From Clostridiales bacterium DTU074 (GTDB lineage: Bacteria > Bacillota > Clostridia > Caldicoprobacterales > Caldicoprobacteraceae): a DNA stretch of 45,226 nucleotides. Positions 22,960 to 34,122 of the stretch are shown here, piece after piece (the first letter of the stretch is position 1; the number at the start of each line of letters is the position of its first letter). A program made the position numbers and the translations under genes. The notes beneath the pieces are model-generated. The model had not been told where the DNA came from, ran no database searches, and saw only the letters and a program-made list of their open reading frames with translations. The DNA lies in the NCBI GenBank assembly GCA_001513075.1, contig LFSE01000097.1, positions 5,096-50,321 of the forward strand. The letters run 5' to 3'.

Positions 22960-23609
22960 AGATTGCTCCTTCGATCCTATCAGCGGATTTTGCAAAACTT
23001 GGGGACGAAGTTAAAAAGCTGCATGATGGAGGAGCCGATATTATACATATAGATGTGATGGATGGTCATTTTGTTCCAAACATGTCCTTTGGCCCCATGG
23101 TGGTCAGCGCCATTCGCTCCTTTACGGATCTGCCCTTCGATGTACATTTGATGATGGACAATCCCATGGATTATATCGGTGCTTTTGTTGAAGCCGGGGC
23201 CGATAGCATTACCGTTCACGGAGAGGTACTGCCCCATCTTCACAGAGCGGTTAATTATATAAAGGGCTTCGGAGTAAAGGCTGCTGTGGCCCTTAATCCT
23301 TCTACACCCCTTAGCATTCTTGACTATATTTTGGGTGATATAGATATGGTACTCATAATGACGGTAAATCCAGGTTTTGGCGGCCAGAAATTTATCCCCG
23401 TGATGATGGAAAAGATACGGCGGCTGTACGACATTAAGAACAAATCGGGCTTTGATTTTTCCATAGAGGTGGATGGAGGTATCGGGCTGAATAACATAAA
23501 TGATGTGGTAAAGGCCGGAGCGGATATAATAGTTGCCGGCTCTGCAGTCTTCAATTCCGATGATATTGGAGCTACCATAAAGGCTCTGAGGGAAGAGGCA
23601 TTGAAATGA
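22953..23609 (+). CDS. rpe: Ribulose-phosphate 3-epimerase
   Basis: The enzyme interconverts ribulose 5-phosphate and xylulose 5-phosphate. The 218-residue TIM barrel has [32 protein letters not shown] with the catalytic Asp and metal-binding His, [21 protein letters not shown], and [11 protein letters not shown]. It overlaps the rsgA end by 7 bases and has AAAGGAGAGG upstream. This rsgA-rpe-thiN order is standard in Firmicutes. Confidence 0.97.
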
Positions 23610-24241
23610 AGGTGATTGTCGTCGCTAACGGGGATATTGGAGACAGGCGCAAGGTAAAGGAGATACTCCCGAAGGCAGATTATGTTATTTGCGCCGATGG
23701 AGGGCTTGAACACGCTGAGGAATTGGGATTGGCACCCGATTTAATTTTAGGAGATTTTGATTCTTTGGCCGGTGATATCCTGCAGCGCTATAGAGACGCG
23801 GGAATTCCAATTAAGGAGTATCCGCAGGACAAGGATAAAACCGATACGCAAATAGCTGTGGATTTGGCCATGGATATGGGTGCAAGTCATGTATATATAC
23901 TGGGGGCATTCGGGAGCCGTTGGGATCATTCCTATGCCAATGTGATGCTGCTGTACAAGTTGGCCAGTAGCAATATTGAGGCTCAGATAATAGATGACCA
24001 TAACACCGTTATGCTTTCAAATGGAGTGGTGAGGTTAACCGGACAGGTGGGTCAGTTTGTATCTTTACTGCCCTTTGGAGGAGATGTTCATATTGCGTAT
24101 ACTCAGGGTTTAAAATACCCTCTTATCGATAAATGGTTGCCCCTTGACTTCCCTTACGGTGTAAGCAATGTCTTTGTCCGGCCTAATGCTGAGATTCGGG
24201 TTGGAAGCGGCTGGTTGATTGTCGTCAAAGCAAGGGATTGA
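23606..24241 (+). CDS. thiN: Thiamine pyrophosphokinase
   Basis: A 211-residue protein that converts thiamine to thiamine diphosphate with ATP. The N-terminal catalytic domain shows the motifs [39 protein letters not shown] and [15 protein letters not shown]; the C-terminal thiamine-binding half has [19 protein letters not shown] and FPYGVSNVF. Its ATG overlaps the rpe stop (ATGA). Confidence 0.96.
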
Positions 24242-24590: not shown

Positions 24591-24673
24591 ACCTGGGATT
24601 CAATGCTTTTAAAGCCAGCCAGATGATCAGCTTTTGTCTGAAGGGTTTGTACATGGCACTGCTTTTTCAATGA
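24587..24673 (+). CDS. Candidate 28-residue peptide overlapping the spoVM stop
   Basis: The ATG at 24587-24589 overlaps the spoVM TGA (ATGA), as in many coupled genes of this operon. The frame runs 28 codons to a TGA at 24671-24673, beginning MNLGFNAFKASQMISFCL. It is hydrophobic with two lysines and would form an amphipathic helix. There is no separate Shine-Dalgarno site, so translation would depend on ribosomes finishing spoVM. It ends 15 bases before the terminator hairpin. The overlap and full use of the space before the terminator argue for a gene; its shortness and lack of known relatives argue for caution. Confidence 0.3.
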   Translation: MNLGFNAFKASQMISFCLKGLYMALLFQ

Positions 24674-24687
24674 GCCCGTATAAAAGC

Positions 24688-24730
24688 AAAAAAAGATGGT
24701 GCATACGATGGATATGCATCATCTTTTTTT
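24688..24730 (+). terminator. Strong intrinsic terminator closing the housekeeping operon
   Basis: An 18-base-pair stem: the left arm at 24688-24705 (seven A, then GATGGTGCATA) pairs with the right arm at 24713-24730 (TATGCATCATC, then seven T) with one G-T wobble. The loop is 7 bases. The T run follows on the plus strand, and the A run would serve as a T run on the other strand, so it may work in both directions. Confidence 0.9.
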
Positions 24731-24993
24731 GCCTCGGAGACATTTGAGTCAATTATATTGCTGGAGAAGAAAGCTGTCAGATGATTACCGGAAGCCAATA
24801 TTTTATGTTTTATGATAATAGAAGCTATTAATAAATGAACTTCGACTTCACCGTTCTACAAAATATTGAAGCCATATATGCTATACTTGTCCACGGGAAA
24901 ATTATGCTAATAAGAGTAAGAATAAAATATGGATTTTCTGTATATTAATATATTTGTGGTGAGGAAATAACTGTCAGCAAGGAGTGGATACAG
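24731..24993. other. AT-rich intergenic region at the core-accessory boundary
   Basis: A 263-base gap after the operon terminator and before the secreted-protein gene at 24994. I see no open frame with a start site, no RNA gene and no repeat. TATACT at 24880-24885 resembles a -10 box but lacks a -35 partner at 16-18 bases, so the downstream promoter may need an activator, possibly the response regulator encoded in the same module. Confidence 0.5.
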
Positions 24994-25737
24994 ATGAGCT
25001 TTTTAGTTAAATTTCTCAAGATATTTATAGTAATTGCAGTTATAGCAGTCTGTGCTTCTGGCACGGCAAATACTTCTTCCGGGGTTTCGCAGTTTATATT
25101 GAGCAGGGAAGCAAAGATGAGGGTTGCAGATTCTGAGAATGCTTTTATATCACTGCCTAAAACAATAAAGATGTACATAAAGGTTTTAAATGGGGAGGAC
25201 AAAGATGATGTCAAATCCACGTCAAACCAACAAAGACTGACCGAGGATGTAATAAATATAAGGGGTGATTTTACAGTCAAAAATAACTTAAGCAATAGCA
25301 TAAAACTAAAAAGGATTTATTTCGAAGAGCTCAATATAGGAGTTGACCTGTACGAATTCACTATTGAAAGCGGGGAGGAGAAAAAGGTAAGTATCAATGG
25401 TACGTTTTCATATAATGGGAAGGATAATATAAATGGTGGCACAAAAAGCCAATCTGCAAAAGCCGTTTTGTTTTTTGAATGGGACGGGGGAAAGTCAGAT
25501 ATCTATAAAGATGTAGCTATTTATATTGAATCAGTTAAGGATAAGCGGGAAGAAGTGAAAGAAGAAGTGAAAAAGGAAAACATATCACAGGAGGAAAACA
25601 AAGGCGAAAATACAGAACAAGGAGAGGATACGGGCAAGGACGCTGATAATATGGAGGAAGATGCAGGCGAGAATATCGGGGCGGGAAAAGACCCAGCGGA
25701 GAATGGGACTAATCAATCCTTTTACAAGGAAGTGTAA
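24994..25737 (+). CDS. Secreted DUF1102-like protein with acidic tail, start of two-component module
   Basis: A 247-residue protein beginning with a basic residue pair and a hydrophobic signal (VKFLKIFIVIAVIAVCA). Just after it comes SREAKMRVADSENAFISL, which resembles REVTMKVVSDAEGLISL in the secreted protein at 28224 of this window and the adRtvsvsVadD-like opening I recall from DUF1102 proteins. The middle (residues about 85-190) looks beta-rich. The final 65 residues are Glu/Asp/Asn/Lys-rich and low in complexity (EEVKEEVKKENISQEE and on). AAGGAG lies 9 bases before the ATG. Its stop overlaps the histidine-kinase start, so it is co-expressed with the sensor. I infer a surface or matrix protein, perhaps one that presents a signal to the kinase. 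No enzymatic motif is visible. Confidence 0.75.
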   Translation: MSFLVKFLKIFIVIAVIAVCASGTANTSSGVSQFILSREAKMRVADSENAFISLPKTIKMYIKVLNGEDKDDVKSTSNQQRLTEDVINIRGDFTVKNNLSNSIKLKRIYFEELNIGVDLYEFTIESGEEKKVSINGTFSYNGKDNINGGTKSQSAKAVLFFEWDGGKSDIYKDVAIYIESVKDKREEVKEEVKKENISQEENKGENTEQGEDTGKDADNMEEDAGENIGAGKDPAENGTNQSFYKEV

Positions 25738-27473
25738 TGCAAATGAATGATGCAGCCGTTAAAGGGATTGAAATATTCGATTTTAAATCGGAAGAACTGA
25801 AGATAATACATAGATACAGATACTTTTCATGGTTGATAACATCCATGTTCTATTTTTGGCGTAACCCGGCTTCCCATTGGGTTTTCAGGATCGGAGTAAT
25901 AGTCCTGTTGTTCATTTCATCCCAAATTACAATTGGCATATATAATAAACAAAGTAAATGGACAAAGAACGCAATATATTTCATTTTAATTGAAACCATG
26001 GGTATAATATTGCTGTTATTACCTACCGGTGGGGTCAACAGCCCTTTTATCTGGTATGCATTAAATCCCGTGCTGATTTCTGCAAGCTTTTCATTTTACT
26101 ATTTCTGTTGGCTGAATTTATTGTGCTATGTATCCGCATCGATTGTAATATCTTACCTGTTCTACAATCCGAATGGCGAAAGCCTGGGCTTGATGGTAAT
26201 GTCAAATGCCCATTTGATTCTGATATTTATACTCATGACTCTGGCTGTTCATTTGTTGACTAAATTGACTTCAAAATTGAAAGCCCAGAGCGACAGACTA
26301 TTGGAAGTAAATATACAGTTAAATCAGGCTAACAGTAAAATTCATGAATCAATAGCGCATATTATGTCTCTCTATGAAGCCGTTGAAGTTCTTACTTCCA
26401 ACAAAAATAAGAGGGAAGATATCTATAATATATTTGCCGAATATATAACTAAGCTTACAGGTGCTGAAATGGCTTTTTTCTGGTTAAAAAACGGTGATGG
26501 AAATGCTTCCGATGTGATTTCAATAAATCCCGATGTGCCGGAGAATATGAAAGTCAGCCTCCTGCGCGGCATAAGGGATATTGATGATGATATTTCATTA
26601 TCAGATGAAATACTAAAAATTAATGTTGATGGTTATAATTTTCACGCTTCTGCTGTAAAGTTGACTCCCGGAGATTGGGGTTTAATCGGTTTTGAAGCCA
26701 ATAATGACGATTCGGAGATCATAAAAGAGGAGCATATAAAACAATTGAAATTTATAACCAGGTTGGCGGCAATAGTGCTGGAAAGATTTCATTTGGAAGA
26801 AGTTACGGAAAGGTTGATCATCGCTGAAGAACAAAATCGAATTGCCAATGAGATGCATGACAATGTTGCCCAGGGATTGTTTGCCATAATTTATGCAATC
26901 AATTCGTTAATCCAAAACAGGGACAAAATGTCAGTCTCCCAAATACAGGAAAGCTTACACTTGCTGCAGAAATCTGCTCAATTATCAATGGAGGAGTTGC
27001 GTTCCACCATATACAGACTCAGTTCTAAAAAGGGAGGGCAAAAATCTTTCAAACAGGGTTTATCCGAGTATATTAATACTATCACTAAGCTAAACAATAT
27101 CAGGATAAACCTTGAAATAAACGGGGATGAAGAGCTGCTTGGCATTCAGAAGAAAAGGGGATTATACAGGATCATATGCGAAGCTACAGGTAATGCCATA
27201 CGACACGGAAAATGCAGCATGATTGAGATAAAGCTTGATATTTATAAGGCTTTCGTTGAGCTTAATATTGCCGATAATGGTGAAGGTTTCGATTCAGGTA
27301 ATATAGACAGGGGGGAAGGGAGCGGACTGGGAATCCGTAACATGAGCAGGATTGTGGAACTATTTGGCGGTAAAATAACCATAGATGGAGAACCGGGCAA
27401 GGGCACCGTAATTAACGTACGCATGCCCAACGATATATCCATACCAGGAAGTCGGGAGGGGATAGCAATATGA
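25737..27473 (+). CDS. Membrane sensor histidine kinase, NarX/DegS-type, with GAF-like domain
   Basis: A 578-residue sensor. Residues about 47-175 form roughly five membrane helices with short connections and no large outer domain, followed by a coiled coil (about 178-215) and a GAF-like region (about 225-350, YNIFAEYITKLTGAEMAFFWL). The HisKA_3 dimer domain has the phosphorylated histidine at H374 in EEQNRIANEMHDNVAQGLF. The ATPase domain has the N box EATGNAIRHG (N486), DNGEGF (513-518) and GSGLG. It starts in a TAATG overlap with the secreted-protein gene and ends in an ATGA overlap with the response regulator. With five membrane helices it may sense membrane or surface-protein state rather than a soluble ligand; this is inference. 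Confidence 0.92.
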   Translation: MQMNDAAVKGIEIFDFKSEELKIIHRYRYFSWLITSMFYFWRNPASHWVFRIGVIVLLFISSQITIGIYNKQSKWTKNAIYFILIETMGIILLLLPTGGVNSPFIWYALNPVLISASFSFYYFCWLNLLCYVSASIVISYLFYNPNGESLGLMVMSNAHLILIFILMTLAVHLLTKLTSKLKAQSDRLLEVNIQLNQANSKIHESIAHIMSLYEAVEVLTSNKNKREDIYNIFAEYITKLTGAEMAFFWLKNGDGNASDVISINPDVPENMKVSLLRGIRDIDDDISLSDEILKINVDGYNFHASAVKLTPGDWGLIGFEANNDDSEIIKEEHIKQLKFITRLAAIVLERFHLEEVTERLIIAEEQNRIANEMHDNVAQGLFAIIYAINSLIQNRDKMSVSQIQESLHLLQKSAQLSMEELRSTIYRLSSKKGGQKSFKQGLSEYINTITKLNNIRINLEINGDEELLGIQKKRGLYRIICEATGNAIRHGKCSMIEIKLDIYKAFVELNIADNGEGFDSGNIDRGEGSGLGIRNMSRIVELFGGKITIDGEPGKGTVINVRMPNDISIPGSREGIAI

Positions 27474-28093
27474 AGATAATAATTGTGGATGACCATCCTT
27501 TGGTTAGAGAAGGCTTGGCTTTGTATTTAAATATGGAAGAGGATATAGAAGTGATTGGTGTGTGTGCCAATGTATCAGAGGCGCTGTCAATGCTGAAAAG
27601 TGAAAAGCCCGATTTGGCTTTGATAGATCTGAAGCTCGGGAAAGAATGCGGTTTGGACATAGTAAAATCAGCCAGAGAATGGGAGTGCAGCAGCAAATTC
27701 ATAATCCTTACATCCTCAACTTCCTATGAAGATTTTCTTATGACGGTAAAATGCAATGTAGATGGCTATATTTTGAAGGAAGCATTGCCGGAAGAGCTGT
27801 TATATGCTATACGCCTGGTCAGTTGTGGCAGGAGATATTATGACCCTAAATTAATGGAGTATAAACTGCATTATAATGAGAACAACTTTTATGAACAGCT
27901 GACTCCTCGAGAAAGAGAAGTGTTATACGAGATAGGACGGGGGTTGAGCAATCAGCAAATAGCCAAAAAGTTATTCATCACGGAAAGTACCGTGAAAAAA
28001 CACGTCGGTCAGATATTTGCCAAATTGGGTTTAAAGGATCGGACTCAGGCAGCTTTGTATGCAAATAATATAGAACCAAAACATATCAATTAA
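27470..28093 (+). CDS. LuxR/NarL-family response regulator
   Basis: A 207-residue response regulator. The receiver domain (residues 1-120) has the acidic pair D7-D8, the phosphorylated D53 (ALIDLKLG) and Lys in YILKEA. The C-terminal LuxR-type helix-turn-helix is LTPREREVLYEIGRGLSNQQ followed by IAKKLFITESTVKKHVGQIF. A strong site GGGAGGGG precedes the ATG, which overlaps the kinase stop by 4 bases, so this is the kinase's partner. The likely targets are the flanking secreted-protein and signal-peptidase genes. Confidence 0.95.
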   Translation: MKIIIVDDHPLVREGLALYLNMEEDIEVIGVCANVSEALSMLKSEKPDLALIDLKLGKECGLDIVKSAREWECSSKFIILTSSTSYEDFLMTVKCNVDGYILKEALPEELLYAIRLVSCGRRYYDPKLMEYKLHYNENNFYEQLTPREREVLYEIGRGLSNQQIAKKLFITESTVKKHVGQIFAKLGLKDRTQAALYANNIEPKHIN

Positions 28094-28095
28094 TA

Positions 28096-28107
28096 CTACT
28101 TAAGTAG
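28096..28107. promoter_or_regulatory. Perfect palindrome CTACTTAAGTAG, possible response-regulator site
   Basis: A 12-base perfect inverted repeat lies two bases after the response-regulator stop and about 115 bases before the DUF1102 gene. NarL/LuxR-type regulators bind inverted repeats as dimers, so it could be the operator for the downstream gene. No second exact copy was found by eye upstream of 24994. Confidence 0.35.
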
Positions 28108-28223
28108 CATTCTATAATTGTACCCTGGTGCAAGCAAATGTGCCATTTAGTTGGATTTTAAAATTTGGCAAAGATGCCATAATATAACTGAAAGTGATAA
28201 ATAAAAAATTAGGAGGGATTAAG

Positions 28224-28847
28224 GTGAAGAGAAGATTTTTTGTAGTATTTACCCTTTTGATAGTGGCATCTTTGCTAGCAGCTATGGGTTCAGGTGCTAT
28301 TGATGTATTTAGTGCAGAAAGAGAAGTAACTATGAAAGTAGTAAGTGATGCAGAGGGATTGATATCACTTGAGGGAGATGGGAAATATGCAAAGGAAGGA
28401 ACCAAAGGAAAAGAAAAAGGGAAACTGTATCTGGATTTTACCAATACATCAGTGGGTGGCCAAGGGCTAAATCCGCAGGCGATATCTGAGTTTCATGAAG
28501 TATTCAGAGTAACAAACAAAAGTGAAAAAACAGTTTATGTATGGTTTGAGGCTAAAGGATGGGATTCGCAACACAATGCTGGATTACAATATATAGTAGA
28601 TAAAACCAATGGAAATATTATCAAGGCGACAGATACATACAAAACAAATACCTTATTAACCACGACAGGGTGGAATTTTAAAAATGGTGTAGGCAATATG
28701 GCATATGTGCAACTTGATCCGGGAGAATATTTTAGCGTCAAGATTACTGTTGATACTAGATTAAGCAATGGTTATGGAAATCCTTACTATAATTGGGATC
28801 ACACAGTAATTGTTAAGGCCAATACCACTGCGCCAGTTCAGAAGTAA
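28224..28847 (+). CDS. Secreted DUF1102-like surface protein
   Basis: A 207-residue protein starting at GTG 28224, seven bases after AGGAGGG; the open frame extends 10 codons upstream without a ribosome site. It has a basic-hydrophobic signal (VKRRFFVVFTLLIVASLLAA), then MGSGAIDVFSAEREVTMKV and VSDAEGLISLEGDGKY. This arrangement closely resembles haloarchaeal DUF1102 proteins, in which GTGAF, ADR and V.V..D..A.L.L follow the signal. The rest is beta-rich with aromatic residues (VFRVTNKSEKTVYVWFEAKG; LDPGEYFSVKITVD), like the Ig-like fold of TasA/camelysin-type exported proteins. There are no cysteines after the signal. The next gene encodes a SipW-like signal peptidase that probably cleaves it. 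I infer a cell-surface or fibre-forming protein under control of the upstream two-component system. Confidence 0.8.
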   Translation: MKRRFFVVFTLLIVASLLAAMGSGAIDVFSAEREVTMKVVSDAEGLISLEGDGKYAKEGTKGKEKGKLYLDFTNTSVGGQGLNPQAISEFHEVFRVTNKSEKTVYVWFEAKGWDSQHNAGLQYIVDKTNGNIIKATDTYKTNTLLTTTGWNFKNGVGNMAYVQLDPGEYFSVKITVDTRLSNGYGNPYYNWDHTVIVKANTTAPVQK

Positions 28848-28879
28848 ATACAATCAGTGTATAAAACATAATAATGCTA

Positions 28880-28921
28880 AATAGAACTATAGATTAGGGC
28901 TCTAATCTATAGTTCTATTTT
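28880..28921 (+). terminator. 18-bp perfect hairpin between the DUF1102 and signal-peptidase genes
   Basis: AATAGAACTATAGATTAG (28880-28897) pairs perfectly with its complement at 28902-28919, loop GGCT, followed by a short T-rich stretch (TTTTATT including the arm end). It is AT-rich but long. It probably ends most transcripts after the secreted protein and lets some read through into the peptidase gene, giving more substrate than enzyme. Confidence 0.8.
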
Positions 28922-28940
28922 ATTAATCAGGGAGGAAAGC

Positions 28941-30077
28941 ATGAACAAAGTTTTGAATCCTAAAAAACTGATTTATTTTTTTCTGATATTAATATGTGTA
29001 TTTATCGTTTTTGTAAAGTATATGAATCTGAATGACAAACTTCCATTTGGGCTCTGGTATGTTCAATCTGATAGTATGAAACCTACGATAACAATTGATG
29101 ATGGCTTTATTCTTATTAGATCAAATGAATATTCTGTCAATGACATAATAACGTTTAGACCTCAGGTCTTAAATGATGAATATGTAACCCATAGAATTAT
29201 TGATGTTACCGATGATGGTAAGTATATAACAAAGGGAGACTATAACCAGTCGACGGATCAGGAAGGTGGCGAACCGGCCGTCGATAAAGAGTATATTGTT
29301 GGAAAAGTTATGGTGATCAATGAAAGGCCCTTTATTATACCGAATTTGGGAATTATCTCCCGCAGGATTAATGAAATGGTGGGAGATATTAACGTTTTCA
29401 AATTATTATCCATGGGAATCTTTGTATATCTGATAGGGTATATTTTGGATACCTTTGCTGAAAGAAATAAGCCTTCAAATAAGAAGAAACTGCGTTTGAT
29501 TGATATCGCCCCATATTTTGACTGGGTTTTTCTTATACTTTGCGCAACTTTGCTTATCAATATTTTCTTTCTGGTATGGACAATAAAATCCTGGGGTGCC
29601 GAAGAAATTGGCTATGTTGTTGTGTCTACAGAGGGAATTTCAGCCCCATTGCCCGGTGAGGTGTTTACAGAGACAAGGGCTTTGGAAAACAGGACTTTGT
29701 TTCCCTTTGTTACTGTGATGGAAGCGCAAAGAGCTGGGGTGGAGGTAAATCCAAAAAAGCTTAAACTGCCACCAAAACAGCATCATGAGTACCTTGTAGT
29801 CATAAAGGCACCCGATGATATAGGATATTATATAGAAAGGATACACAAAAAATCCTATCCCGATTTACTGCCGGATAAACTCCTGGTTTATTTATATTCA
29901 AAAGGCGAGATTCTACCGCTGGTGGTTATATTCGGTCCAGTCATTCTTCTGAATATTGCTCTTTTTATATGGTGGAACAGGCGTTGGCAAACCGGAGAGA
30001 AGGAAGTCATGGGATGGTTGATAGCATTGAGGAAATTGTTAAAACCCGTGATCAAGTATTTCCAAAATGCAGGATGA
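28941..30077 (+). CDS. SipW/archaeal-type signal peptidase I with C-terminal membrane extension
   Basis: A 378-residue member of peptidase family S26B. After an N-terminal membrane span (residues 10-27), the catalytic serine is S45 in QSDSMKPTI, the catalytic histidine that replaces lysine of ordinary signal peptidase is H84 in YVTHRIIDV, and an aspartate lies in KGDYNQSTD (D100 or D106). This Ser-His-Asp layout and spacing match SipW and the ER/archaeal enzymes. More spans occur at about 153-170 and 193-214, then an outer domain of about 110 residues and a final span near 320-345. SipW is about 190 residues, so the second half is an addition of unknown role. GGGAGG precedes the ATG. It probably matures the DUF1102-like proteins upstream. 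Confidence 0.88.
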   Translation: MNKVLNPKKLIYFFLILICVFIVFVKYMNLNDKLPFGLWYVQSDSMKPTITIDDGFILIRSNEYSVNDIITFRPQVLNDEYVTHRIIDVTDDGKYITKGDYNQSTDQEGGEPAVDKEYIVGKVMVINERPFIIPNLGIISRRINEMVGDINVFKLLSMGIFVYLIGYILDTFAERNKPSNKKKLRLIDIAPYFDWVFLILCATLLINIFFLVWTIKSWGAEEIGYVVVSTEGISAPLPGEVFTETRALENRTLFPFVTVMEAQRAGVEVNPKKLKLPPKQHHEYLVVIKAPDDIGYYIERIHKKSYPDLLPDKLLVYLYSKGEILPLVVIFGPVILLNIALFIWWNRRWQTGEKEVMGWLIALRKLLKPVIKYFQNAG

Positions 30078-30139
30078 AATAATATAAAAATAGGTGCCGA
30101 GCTCTTTTTTTTTTTACAAGCTGAACAAGCAGAAAATAT

Positions 30140-30188
30140 AAAAAGCAAAACTGTAAATACATATAATTTATGACATATTGCTTTTTTT
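30140..30188 (+). terminator. Terminator after the signal-peptidase gene
   Basis: AAAAAGCAA (30140-30148) pairs with TTGCTTTTT (30178-30186), with inner partial pairing of TAAAT and ATTTA; seven T follow the GC pair on the plus strand. The stem is AT-rich and the loop is long, so strength is uncertain. It separates the secretion module from the sugar locus. Confidence 0.5.
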
Positions 30189-30216
30189 GAAGGAAAAAGC
30201 GTTGAGAATGTATAAT
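30187..30216 (+). promoter_or_regulatory. Sigma-A-type promoter for the carbohydrate locus
   Basis: TTGAAG (30187-30192) and TATAAT (30211-30216) are separated by 18 bases. The predicted start is near 30223, about 30 bases before the first gene of the locus. It directly follows the terminator T run. Confidence 0.65.
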
Positions 30217-30255
30217 TTATAATAAAGAGTAAAAGCAGGGAGGATGAAATTTGTT

Positions 30256-31104
30256 ATGATACCAACAGTAGATTTTTTCGGGACACGGATAACGCGTTTA
30301 ATCCTGGGAGATAATCCTTTTAATGGACACTCTTATATTCCGGAAATTCATGACGGTGAGGAAATGATGGACTATTATACGGCTGATAATTGTATAAGGG
30401 CACTGTTTGAGGCAGAGGAAAGTGGAATAAATGCATATATGGCGCTGGCAGACCCCTTTATACTGCGAGTAATTCGGCAGTACCGCAAAGAGGGCGGAAA
30501 GATGAAAATTCTTTTTCAAACTTATCCTGCTATAGAATTGGAAACAAATCTCTGGATGATGGAAAAATGTGAACCTATAGCCATATACCATCAGGGAGGA
30601 ACGGCAGATTACATGTATGAGATGGGAGATATCGACGGCTTGAGTAAAAGAATAAAACTGATAAAGAACACCGGACTGCCTACAGGTCTGGGTACCCATG
30701 TCCCTGAAATAGTGCTGCAGGCTGAAGAGGAGAATTGGGGTGTTGACTTTTACATGACATCTCTTTACAATGCCCGAAAGACTCAGCGCGGGCAACAGAG
30801 CGGCTTTATAACGGGTAAACCAAAGCATTTAGTGTTTTATCCTGAAGATAGGTTTTTGATGTTTGATGTCATTAAAAAAGTCAATAAACCTTGCATAGCA
30901 TTTAAAATTTTCGCAGGAGGCCAAGTTTTTTATAATAAGCCGGAGGAAGAAATTCCCGCCATTGTAGAAGGTGTATTCAGGGAAACATTTGAGAACATTA
31001 AGCCTAATGATTTGGTGTGTATCGGTGTTTTTCAGAAGTACAAGAACCAAATAAAGGAGAATACGGACATAGTTAAGTCAATATTTAAGTCAGGTAAGGG
31101 ATAA
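30256..31104 (+). CDS. Uncharacterised TIM-barrel-like protein, first gene of sugar locus
   Basis: About 282 residues. I recognise no named family. The opening FFGTRITRLILGDNPFNGHSY resembles the first strand and loop of some aldo/keto-reductase-like and aldolase-like barrels, and alternating strand-helix segments follow (GINAYMALADP; MKILFQTYP; EPIAIYHQGGTADY; LPTGLGTHVPEIVLQAEEENWGVDFY; KPCIAFKIFAGGQ), as in a TIM barrel. No signal peptide, so cytoplasmic. The ATG at 30244 touches the GGGAGG site, whereas the one at 30256 is 12 bases from it; I prefer 30256. Its promoter and position suggest a role in sugar metabolism with the genes that follow, but the reaction is unknown. Confidence 0.75.
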   Translation: MIPTVDFFGTRITRLILGDNPFNGHSYIPEIHDGEEMMDYYTADNCIRALFEAEESGINAYMALADPFILRVIRQYRKEGGKMKILFQTYPAIELETNLWMMEKCEPIAIYHQGGTADYMYEMGDIDGLSKRIKLIKNTGLPTGLGTHVPEIVLQAEEENWGVDFYMTSLYNARKTQRGQQSGFITGKPKHLVFYPEDRFLMFDVIKKVNKPCIAFKIFAGGQVFYNKPEEEIPAIVEGVFRETFENIKPNDLVCIGVFQKYKNQIKENTDIVKSIFKSGKG

Positions 31105-31245
31105 AAACCCGGATGGTAAACCAGGTTTGATTTGGATTGTTGCAGATAGGGTTATTACACTGTTTCAATGAGAACTTAATAATGAAGGATTTTAAGAACT
31201 GCTGTAGAATAAAAGAATAAAATTATAAAATGGGGGATAGCGGCA

Positions 31246-34122
31246 ATGAGGCTTATAAAGAAGACAGGCGTATGGGACATGTTCAGACGTGAAACCAGCC
31301 TTATTATCACGGATGAGAAGACTCTGGACAACATTATCGAGGATCCGTCGAAACCCCTGTTGGATAAGGACAATAGGGGATTCTCGATGGAAAAGCGTTC
31401 CTTGTATGATGAAAAAACAACTCTGTTGGATATCTGCCGGAAGGGAAAGGAAAACAAAGCGGAACAGCTGGCCGTGTCTTATGATTTCTTCTTCGGCGGC
31501 AGCAAGAGGGAGAATTATCCCGACAGCGAGAAGACTATAAAGGCATTTAAAATAATTCATGATACAGCCAAAGAATATGGAATGGGTTTTTCAGCCAGTA
31601 TAGTTTCTCCACTCGATATTGGAGGCGGATATGCCCGGAAACATGAGAATACAGGTTTCACCTATCAGTTTGCCGAGGGAGCCATAAAGCCCGACGGTAC
31701 ATATTCCATTCCGGTTACTCTTCAGACCCAGTGGCTCAATAATAAAGGGCCGATACAGCTTAAATTGGAGAAGGTAATGGTGTTTGCCTTCAATGAAGAA
31801 AGAATCGAGGATACAAATCTGTTCTATGTGGATCCAAATGACATAAGGGACATTTCCGATACGGCTCAATATGAGATTGATGAGGAATCGATCCATGTTT
31901 CCTTCAACGGTTACGGAAGCGGAAACATGCGGGTGTTCGGAAAAACATCGGAGGGCAACAGGTATTCAAGATGCATGGCTGTGATGATCTACAGGACGCC
32001 GGAGCTTGATTATTTTGCGGAGGATGCGCTGGATTATATGAAAGGGATAATCGATCTTCACCATAAAGCGGGCATCAGTTACACGGGTTTCTACTCCGAT
32101 GAGATGCATATTCAATTCGATTGGGACCTGTTTAATCACTTTGGAGAAAATGAAATCAATACCCGTTATGTTTCCAGGGGATTAAAGGATGAATACGCCA
32201 GAAGATACGGAGAGGAATACAGGGATTTTGAAAAATATATGATCTATTTTGCCTATCATCAGCATGACTTTCTGGATGGAGAAGAGGGAAGGGAAGCAAG
32301 CCAGCATGTGTTTGGGAAGGATGAAAAAAGCATATACGAGACCTGGCTGTTCCGCAAGCGGTATTTTGAAATGCTGCAACGTCAGGTAGTGGATCTCTGC
32401 GTTAAAGCCAAGGAATATGCTGAAGAGCTATTCGGCGGTCCGATTCACACAAAAGCCCACTCCACATGGCAGGAGTCCCCGACCTGTGATCGCTTCTATA
32501 AGGAGGCCCTGTTCTCGGAATGGCAGCGGGGGGATATTTCACGATATGATTATACTCCCAGCTATTATTGGTCCTCTTCCATACGCGAAAATATAGCTGC
32601 CTGCTACGATTATTTCAAGTGGAATGATTTTTTGACCGGCGGGGGCACCGATCATCCTGAAGGAGGATTTGCCGACAGAAATTACTATAGCCAGGCCTTT
32701 GCTTGCAGCCTGGCAGTTCTCAACAAAACCCCAATTGCTTATAACGGAAGCTGGGGAAGCCCGAAGGAAGTCCTCAGGCGAATACGAAATGTGGGTACTG
32801 CCTACGGCAATCTGACCAATGCTTTTGAGCACAATCTGGTGCAGGGATTGACATCGAGGGAGACCGATGTACTGGCCATATACCCGTTGGATTTAAATTA
32901 TGTTGAAGAGCGCTTTGGCAGTTGGATGGTACAATACGGCTATTGTAACTATATAACTGAAGATAAGATCCTTGAAGAGAAGCCGGAGATTGAGGATGGG
33001 CATCTTGTTATCCGGGGAAGAAAATACAGAGCCCTGGTAATACTTTTCTCTCCTTTCATCAGACCGGAAACCCTCGATTTGATTCGCAAGTTTGTGGAGA
33101 ATAGGGGAAAGGTTCTTTGGACATCAGTTTATCCCCTTGAAGCCCGCAGCAATCCTCCTGTGTTAGGGGATTGGATGGGGTTGTTTGGCATAAAATCAAT
33201 ACAGCCGGCCTATAGAGGATACTGTCAGAAGGATGAGATGGTCAAGTTCGAAAACAGTCTGTCAGGCGTGGAAGATATGCCGATTTTGACCGATATGCTG
33301 CCGGATTACCTCTATCCCGTACAGCCGGCTGAAGGGGCTGAGGTTGTGGCTAAAGTAAAGGATATGGTTGTGGGTGTTGCCAAGAAATACAGCAGCGGTG
33401 GTACGGCCGTTTATTTGGGCTTCCGTCCCCGGGATGATCAATCCTGTTCCACCGGTCGGGATGTTTCCACCCTGTTCTCGGTTCTGGTGAAGCTGGGAGC
33501 ATATAAACCGGATGGATGCGAAATCAGGTCCCGGCGATCGGACAGCCGGTATCTGATGAACCGATTCCCCAACGGAAGCGTATCGATTACCAATCATTAT
33601 CGAACGTTTTATGAGGAATGGGATGGGAAATTTTTCAGGGATGAGGATGAGGATAGGAAGGCTTTGGCAGGCAGGAAACTTCCGCCTGTGGAAATAGACC
33701 TGACGGATACGGAGATTGGGGGAAACAGGATTACATACTCGGGAATGGATGTTTTGACCTACCGTCTTGATGAGAATAACAGGCTGGTTGGTTTTGCAGG
33801 AAGCAGTACGACCGGTATTTCGATAAACGGAAAAGAATACAGCTTTGTTGAAACTCCCACAAATGTGGTTTGGACCGAAATTGCCAGGGAGCATTTGACG
33901 GATGAAGTCGCAAGGCTGTTTGTAGTTAAAATAGATCTGCCAGGTGAGGTCAGGCTTCCACTGCCGATCGATAGCCCGGAAGACTATAGTGCAGGCTTGT
34001 GCGGTGATTCTGTATATGAGGTATACGAGCCGGTGAAATTCAGATACGAAAATGATTGTTTGATTCTGAATATTGATGAAGGAACTGCCGGAAAGTGGAT
34101 TGCTGTATATAAGAAAAATTAA
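31246..34122 (+). CDS. Large GH42-like putative glycoside hydrolase, cytoplasmic
   Basis: A 958-residue protein without signal peptide. The N-terminal 230 residues form a mostly beta module (FFFGGSKRENYP; SIPVTLQTQWL). A barrel-like region follows with DYMKGIIDLHHKAGISYTGF then YSDEMHIQFDWD, where E286 is a candidate acid/base. Residues about 520-690 resemble the Rossmann-like trimerisation domain of GH42 beta-galactosidases (PKEVLRRIRNVGTAYGN, DVLAIYP, KYRALVILFSPFIRPETLDL), and a beta-rich C-terminal domain ends the protein. This layout suggests a clan GH-A hydrolase, but I see no clear match to a numbered family and cannot name the substrate. A close paralogue begins at 44967. It lies 141 bases after the barrel gene and 13 bases before the next gene; GGGGG precedes its ATG. 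Confidence 0.75.
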   Translation: MRLIKKTGVWDMFRRETSLIITDEKTLDNIIEDPSKPLLDKDNRGFSMEKRSLYDEKTTLLDICRKGKENKAEQLAVSYDFFFGGSKRENYPDSEKTIKAFKIIHDTAKEYGMGFSASIVSPLDIGGGYARKHENTGFTYQFAEGAIKPDGTYSIPVTLQTQWLNNKGPIQLKLEKVMVFAFNEERIEDTNLFYVDPNDIRDISDTAQYEIDEESIHVSFNGYGSGNMRVFGKTSEGNRYSRCMAVMIYRTPELDYFAEDALDYMKGIIDLHHKAGISYTGFYSDEMHIQFDWDLFNHFGENEINTRYVSRGLKDEYARRYGEEYRDFEKYMIYFAYHQHDFLDGEEGREASQHVFGKDEKSIYETWLFRKRYFEMLQRQVVDLCVKAKEYAEELFGGPIHTKAHSTWQESPTCDRFYKEALFSEWQRGDISRYDYTPSYYWSSSIRENIAACYDYFKWNDFLTGGGTDHPEGGFADRNYYSQAFACSLAVLNKTPIAYNGSWGSPKEVLRRIRNVGTAYGNLTNAFEHNLVQGLTSRETDVLAIYPLDLNYVEERFGSWMVQYGYCNYITEDKILEEKPEIEDGHLVIRGRKYRALVILFSPFIRPETLDLIRKFVENRGKVLWTSVYPLEARSNPPVLGDWMGLFGIKSIQPAYRGYCQKDEMVKFENSLSGVEDMPILTDMLPDYLYPVQPAEGAEVVAKVKDMVVGVAKKYSSGGTAVYLGFRPRDDQSCSTGRDVSTLFSVLVKLGAYKPDGCEIRSRRSDSRYLMNRFPNGSVSITNHYRTFYEEWDGKFFRDEDEDRKALAGRKLPPVEIDLTDTEIGGNRITYSGMDVLTYRLDENNRLVGFAGSSTTGISINGKEYSFVETPTNVVWTEIAREHLTDEVARLFVVKIDLPGEVRLPLPIDSPEDYSAGLCGDSVYEVYEPVKFRYENDCLILNIDEGTAGKWIAVYKKN

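Follow-up and report, generated by a model that had tools for sequence, protein, structure and literature searches.

Five adjacent genes in the window analysed here, a stretch of 45,226 nucleotides from contig LFSE01000097.1 of Clostridiales bacterium DTU074, probably constitute a self-contained, sensor-controlled system for extracellular fibres of the TasA/Taf donor-strand type, in which the fibre protein is matured by the system's own peptidase. The window sits in a 2.56-Mb draft genome, and the genus, an uncultured one, includes the metagenome-assembled genome (MAG) 'Firmicutes bacterium UBA3930'. The genes occupy positions 24994-30077 in the order g1, HK, RR, g4, S26:

24994..25737, + strand: g1, a secreted protein of 247 residues with an N-terminal signal/anchor helix, an Ig-like domain and an acidic disordered tail (187-247)
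25737..27473, + strand: HK, a histidine kinase with a membrane sensor containing the motif LLPTGG..SPFIWYALNP, a linker region, and HisKA_3 and HATPase_c domains
27470..28093, + strand: RR, a response regulator of the NarL/LuxR type, with a Response_reg receiver and a GerE domain (Pfam)
28224 (GTG)-28847, + strand: g4, a DUF1102/TafE-like secreted protein and predicted pilin (main fibre subunit)
28941..30077, + strand: S26, an archaeal/SipW-type Ser-His signal peptidase with an extension consisting of a transmembrane (TM) segment, an extracytoplasmic domain and a second TM segment

An earlier first-pass annotation had described five co-directional genes with a two-component pair, secreted proteins and a Ser-His peptidase, and all five open reading frames were verified on the + strand. 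The genes g1 and HK overlap by 1 base and HK and RR by 4 bases, while gaps of 130 and 93 bases separate RR from g4 and g4 from S26, respectively. A congeneric genome has the cluster with the gene order unchanged, a second congener has part of it, and it also occurs outside the family; it is therefore not a chance arrangement. Its gene content, the conserved linkage, the pilin-like predicted fold, a conserved operator-like motif and a hairpin were computed directly.

The predicted pilin, its peptidase and g1

The structure of g4 was modelled with AlphaFold2 on 32 aligned sequences, and compared with known structures using Foldseek and VIA-align. The model contains the pilin β-sandwich of PDB entries 9p0a and 7ueg, with 131-135 residues aligned, and its three best structural matches are all archaeal filament subunits: the Pyrobaculum bundling pili (7ueg, Z 10.1), 9p0a, entitled as the Tafi pilus of Natrinema sp. 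J7-2 (Z 8.7), and the Sulfolobus threads (7pnb, Z 7.9). FimA variants rank below these archaeal filaments (Z ~6.2-6.9). The sequence profile of g4 matches 9p0a as well (E 2.5e-15); sequence identity to 7ueg and 7pnb is just 7-14%. Residues 24-32, after the signal helix, are strandless and of low confidence, and in the model this segment looks as would be expected of a free donor strand.

The first-pass annotation had assigned both secreted proteins to the DUF1102 type and had expected a TasA/DUF1102-like fold. For g4 the assignment stands by way of its homologues, 10 of the 15 aligned matching DUF1102 at E<=0.05 (best 5.7e-40), though g4 itself stays under the cut-off. The expected fold agrees with the matches to archaeal filaments, 9p0a included; TasA and camelysin are not among the top structural matches, and the absence of TasA there excludes nothing. 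Neither g1 nor g4 matches Peptidase_M73 (PF12389) up to E 1, and a profile comparison with camelysin-type proteins was not significant (29% probability). With TasA and camelysin missing among the top folds and this comparison not significant, the tie appears to be to archaeal pili and not to TasA itself. Matches of g4 to designed Pizza propellers in phmmer were rejected as short, repeated chance matches. A DUF1102 family search in the genome of the window returned nothing, and the control was equally silent.

S26 passes the NCBI archaeal signal peptidase model TIGR02228 (59.1 bits; cut-off 51.85) and also matches the SipW model, under its cut-off. Ser45, His84, Asp100 and Asp106 do not vary in an alignment of 15 homologues from bacteria and archaea. 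C-terminal to the catalytic half, extra TM segments frame an extracytoplasmic stretch of ~100 residues (about residues 216-317). This extension is common to the enzymes of Archaeoglobales, Thermococcus and haloarchaea, and two members of the homologue alignment match an Ig-like Pfam domain. The C-terminally extended peptidase adjoins g4 as such peptidases adjoin archaeal DUF1102/Taf subunits; that archaeal DUF1102 genes lie beside similar peptidases had been noted in the first-pass annotation, and archaeal DUF1102-S26 clusters were indeed found in our genome scan.

The role of g1 is less direct. No credible Pfam match was found for g1, and MinC-like and NatB-like matches were discarded as far under the cut-offs. 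A profile-profile comparison with g4 (probability 97.6, E 4e-12, a score to which the signal peptides contribute) places g1 in the superfamily of g4 at the level of sequence, and g1 homologues hold the equivalent place in other loci. The matches of the g1 model to known structures are generic Ig/PapD-like ones alone, and 19 of the 61 residues of the tail are acidic. In a correction to the first-pass annotation, g1, small and Ig-like with an acidic disordered tail, resembles an accessory or anchor protein more than it does another main subunit, and it likely serves the fibre as anchor, cap or chaperone.

Alternatively, g4 and g1 could be secreted or surface-layer proteins, such as adhesins or envelope-stress factors, which are matured by the peptidase and stay unpolymerised, with the sensor regulating envelope maintenance. 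The generic Ig-like fold of g1 would suit this explanation, as would the presence of LiaS-like and UhpB-like kinases among the nearest NCBIfam models of HK. However, each of the three structures that match g4 best is a filament subunit, and elsewhere the same kinase family adjoins TasA/camelysin-type genes (PF12389) or an exopolysaccharide operon. We consider unpolymerised proteins unlikely.

The two-component pair and a conserved palindrome

A HisKA_3 and HATPase_c kinase paired with a REC-GerE regulator makes HK and RR a two-component system of the NarL/LuxR type. The sensor block ETxGI..LLPTGG..SPFIWYALNP of HK is kept in relatives. The five-span kinase of the first-pass annotation is borne out as a kinase by its domains, while the span count is approximate, with four clear spans in hydropathy. 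RR is one of two full-length NarL-type matches in its own genome. NarL sites are arranged as two 7-base arms with a 2-base spacer. The elements that may control the cluster are as follows:

24879..24887, + strand: extended -10 (TGCTATACT) of the probable g1 promoter, conserved in three congeneric genomes, with a predicted function
28094..28109, no strand assigned: predicted operator TACTACTTAAGTAGCA, an inverted repeat of the 7-2-7 form that immediately follows the stop codon of RR, upstream of g4
28178..28183, + strand: probable -10 (CATAAT) of the g4 promoter, in the invariant block ATGCCATAATATAA, conserved in three genomes, with a predicted function
28882..28920, + strand: hairpin followed by a U-rich run in the g4-S26 gap (RNA fold -24.2 kcal/mol, z -5.6)

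Three congeners retain the TACTACTTAAGT core of the operator ahead of g4; the right arm differs at one or two positions. A de novo search for palindromic motifs in 20 promoter regions of fibre or peptidase genes yielded TACTACTTAAGTAGTA, with a score of 79.4 against 30.1+-2.3 for dinucleotide shuffles; with the window left out (19 regions), the score was 70.7 against 32.9+-2.9 for intergenic regions elsewhere in these loci. The motif learnt without the window ranks 28094-28109 first in the 45-kb window (19.1 bits; next 11.2), and the site is unique in its own genome at <=1 mismatch. Of 14 held-out loci, two of them from congeners, 9 have their highest-scoring site in the promoter gap of the matrix genes, including that of the exopolysaccharide operon of genome G120. 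A palindrome was looked for at the g1 promoter and not found; the extended -10 is preceded there by the conserved block CTTCGACTTCA.

The hairpin between g4 and S26, which is also present in UBA3930 (z -4.5), was missed by a terminator scan because its stem is AT-rich. Judged from its sequence, it is likely a partial terminator, which would plausibly result in more g4 than peptidase mRNA.

The cluster is a low-GC island, with a GC content of 36-39% compared to ~43-47% in most of the flanks. To its left lies a thiamine pyrophosphokinase gene (23606-24241), and between that gene and g1 there is a strong hairpin with a T run (24666-24745, z -5.6), likely a terminator that insulates the five-gene cluster. 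The right neighbour (30244-31104) falls outside known Pfam families. Two long open reading frames of 286 and 958 residues (30244-34122), located 3' of the cluster, have no Pfam matches at E<=1; the 958-residue frame has the look of a carbohydrate-active enzyme, judged by eye.

Linkage and history in other genomes

Conserved linkage between the two-component genes and the peptidase had been set beforehand as a test in the first-pass annotation, and such linkage was found starting from either side. A scan of named genomes for extended S26, using one genome per species, returned archaeal clusters and nine Bacillota loci (UBA3930, Lutispora, a Clostridiales MAG, Herbinix, a Clostridiaceae MAG, a Peptococcaceae MAG, Paenisporosarcina and two further Bacillota MAGs), eight of which have a NarL-type HK and RR adjacent or nearby. 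In an even sample of the phylum (398 genomes), HK and/or RR adjoin six of seven extended S26 genes, compared to 5 of 31 short SipW-type loci, some of which end at contig edges (Fisher p 0.001). The reverse test used the sensor part of HK alone as query in 299 genomes: a SipW-like S26 lies within 6 kb of 11 of the 13 sensor-family kinases with readable surroundings (chance ~0.5% each). Because the loci are related by descent, these chance figures are only a guide. The other two kinases, from one genus, are directly upstream of genes for Wzz, a tyrosine-kinase-like ATPase, a nucleotidyltransferase and a sugar transferase, which together form an exopolysaccharide operon, and several of the short-S26 loci carry camelysin-type proteins (PF12389). 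In the exopolysaccharide-linked loci (L217:8283-13979 and L218, from G120 and G312), a motif site is located in the gap after the regulator.

The gene set common to the Bacillota loci is g1 - DUF5305 - HK - RR - S26 - g4, with varying place and orientation of g4 and S26. Pfam confirmed DUF5305 in five loci; the clusters of G064 and of the genus of the window lack it. No two-component pair was present in the archaeal clusters examined. Those of Archaeoglobales and Thermococcus (L051, L053, L054, L058) start with a conserved protein of 140-157 residues upstream of the DUF1102 genes, which looks like a candidate winged-helix regulator. Two further arrangements were observed in Bacillota. A single frame of 742 residues in G198 (L163:8121-10349) fuses a kinase of the family to an extended S26, with the regulator gene missing, and is either a natural deletion or an assembly error. 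A congener has a second locus, of the camelysin type (L039, G001:C39), with HK, a 388-residue S26, DUF5305 and several small secreted proteins; RR is on the opposite strand and the perfect palindrome TACTACTAAAGTAGTA is present.

The two-component pair could also be a neighbour that regulates other genes, with the fibre genes under a different control (e.g. Spo0A-like or SinR-like). Fibre or peptidase genes do occur without an adjacent pair in G002, G012 and G458, tapA-sipW-tasA of B. subtilis is under SinR (PMC9674648), and the g1 promoter has no palindrome. Against such a coincidental neighbourhood stand the reciprocal linkage across families, the palindrome common to fibre promoters and the precedent of BsaRS in C. 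perfringens, and we regard it as very improbable.

Several observations weigh against a fibre system under its own sensor. HK and RR are not located between g1 and g4 in the congener G002, the extended peptidases of G012 and G458 have no two-component genes nearby, and a clear operator copy is not evident at every locus. A search for DUF5305, a component of most related loci, gave no match in the genome of the window; its absence there is unproven, as the control genomes gave none either. g4 scores 19.5 bits against Pfam DUF1102 (PF06510), under the curated cut-off of 22.2, and 36.4 bits (E 4e-9) against NCBIfam TafE, under the equivalog cut-off of 155. The g4 model is of middling confidence (predicted local distance difference test score, pLDDT, 75.6) with low Foldseek TM-scores (0.31-0.42). 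In G002 (L032:4221-4638, L034, L238), g1 and g4 are present and the palindrome is kept despite the missing HK and RR between them; a further g4-S26 pair in this genome is of the Bacillota type, and a kinase with 40% identity lies at the edge of a contig.

The trees of the individual components differ. In the S26 tree, the three congeners group with haloarchaeal S26 (93/80), while 14 other extended S26 of Bacillota form a separate clade (100/99); a single Bacillota S26 clade has a borderline p of 0.048 in the approximately unbiased (AU) test. The g4 tree cannot tell the histories apart: a single Bacillota clade is not rejected (AU p 0.295), and therefore we make no claim of archaeal origin for g4. 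Monophyly of the kinases from this type of locus is rejected (AU p 1.5e-7), and these kinases are intermixed with those of camelysin-type loci. From the three trees, regulator and fibre set have apparently been re-paired over time. An archaeal source of the set is possible for this genus. In a scenario compatible with the fibre system, the g4-S26 pair would have reached this genus from an archaeal donor and only afterwards become linked to a bacterial two-component system for the matrix that was already resident, with a separate history of the set in other Bacillota. The position of the congeners' S26, the AU value for S26 and the scattered kinases speak for such a donor and for re-pairing, whereas the g4 tree is non-separating, and the S26 tree has long branches and biased composition, with its AU value only borderline. 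We hold this scenario tentatively, at somewhat less than even chances.

Known systems and proposed mechanism

What g4 and S26 resemble most are the archaeal Taf/Tafi fimbriae (Natrinema, 9p0a; NCBIfam TafA/C/E/F) and the clusters of DUF1102, S26 and DUF5305-like genes in Thermococcus and Archaeoglobus, in which a DUF1102-type subunit also adjoins a C-terminally extended S26. Protein fibres of this kind are known chiefly from archaea. Unlike the cluster described here, these have no two-component genes, and the hyperthermophile ones begin with a small winged-helix-like protein; conversely, no extra Taf proteins and no DUF5305 were seen in the window cluster. The Pyrobaculum pili and Sulfolobus threads share the donor-strand filament and are among the best matches of the g4 model, but are archaeal, and distant in sequence. 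In B. subtilis, tapA-sipW-tasA is under SinR control and TasA forms donor-strand fibres (PMC9674648). That operon likewise pairs a dedicated SipW-type peptidase with a protein that forms donor-strand fibres, and encodes a secreted accessory protein as well (PMC9674648, PMC10151520); it differs in having no two-component genes, a camelysin-type TasA, and a short peptidase without the extra domain.

In C. perfringens, expression of sipW-bsaABCRSD requires the two-component system BsaRS, BsaR binds the sipW promoter, BsaA polymerises, and transcription continues past a predicted terminator after bsaA into the remaining operon (PMC7395162). Here too, one locus holds a SipW-type peptidase, a secreted protein that would form polymers and a two-component system of its own, and a terminator within the operon would set transcript amounts. 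The short SipW, BsaA in place of a DUF1102-type subunit, and the gene order are different. This likeness is one of locus content. The first-pass annotation saw in the cluster the strongest candidate in the window for an undescribed surface-structure system; a two-component system in a SipW operon does have one studied precedent, BsaRS (PMC7395162). A SipW operon with an essential two-component system (C. perfringens), TasA donor-strand fibres (B. subtilis) and Taf-type pili (haloarchaea, 9p0a) are already known. Two things are new in our reading. One is the combination of an archaeal-type subunit and an extended peptidase with a bacterial pair of the NarL type, an arrangement kept in several Bacillota families; the other is a predicted operator-like motif common to fibre, camelysin-type and exopolysaccharide loci. 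No paper describing an archaeal-type fibre set under a NarL-type pair was found in the open-access literature.

For the proposed fibre system, we infer phosphotransfer, operator binding, cleavage and polymerisation, and likewise what g1 does and that the fibres serve a matrix or biofilm. The membrane kinase would sense an envelope or environmental signal and phosphorylate the NarL-type regulator, a dimer of which would bind the palindrome at 28094-28109 and activate the g4 promoter. g4 would be exported by Sec, and the neighbouring Ser-His peptidase would cleave off the signal peptide. The freed N-terminal segment of g4 could then complete the β-sandwich of the next subunit (donor-strand complementation), giving a TasA/Taf-like filament. 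The conserved hairpin after g4 may pass only part of transcription into the peptidase gene, and with such partial read-through the subunit would outnumber the enzyme. g1, expressed from its own promoter together with kinase and regulator, may serve as anchor, cap or chaperone.

We further speculate, with the chances close to balanced but slightly unfavourable, that one family of Bacillota sensor kinases, with its NarL-type regulators, serves specifically to control the extracellular matrix, drives DUF1102/Taf fibres, camelysin/TasA fibres and exopolysaccharide via one palindromic operator, and has here captured an archaeal-type fimbrial cassette. If the proposed fibre system is true, archaeal donor-strand pili would be connected with bacterial biofilm fibres via an intact cluster with its own switch. 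The sensor family and the DNA motif predict matrix genes in many unstudied Bacillota and, with both named, the signal of such systems, including that of BsaS in C. perfringens, becomes testable in several hosts at once.

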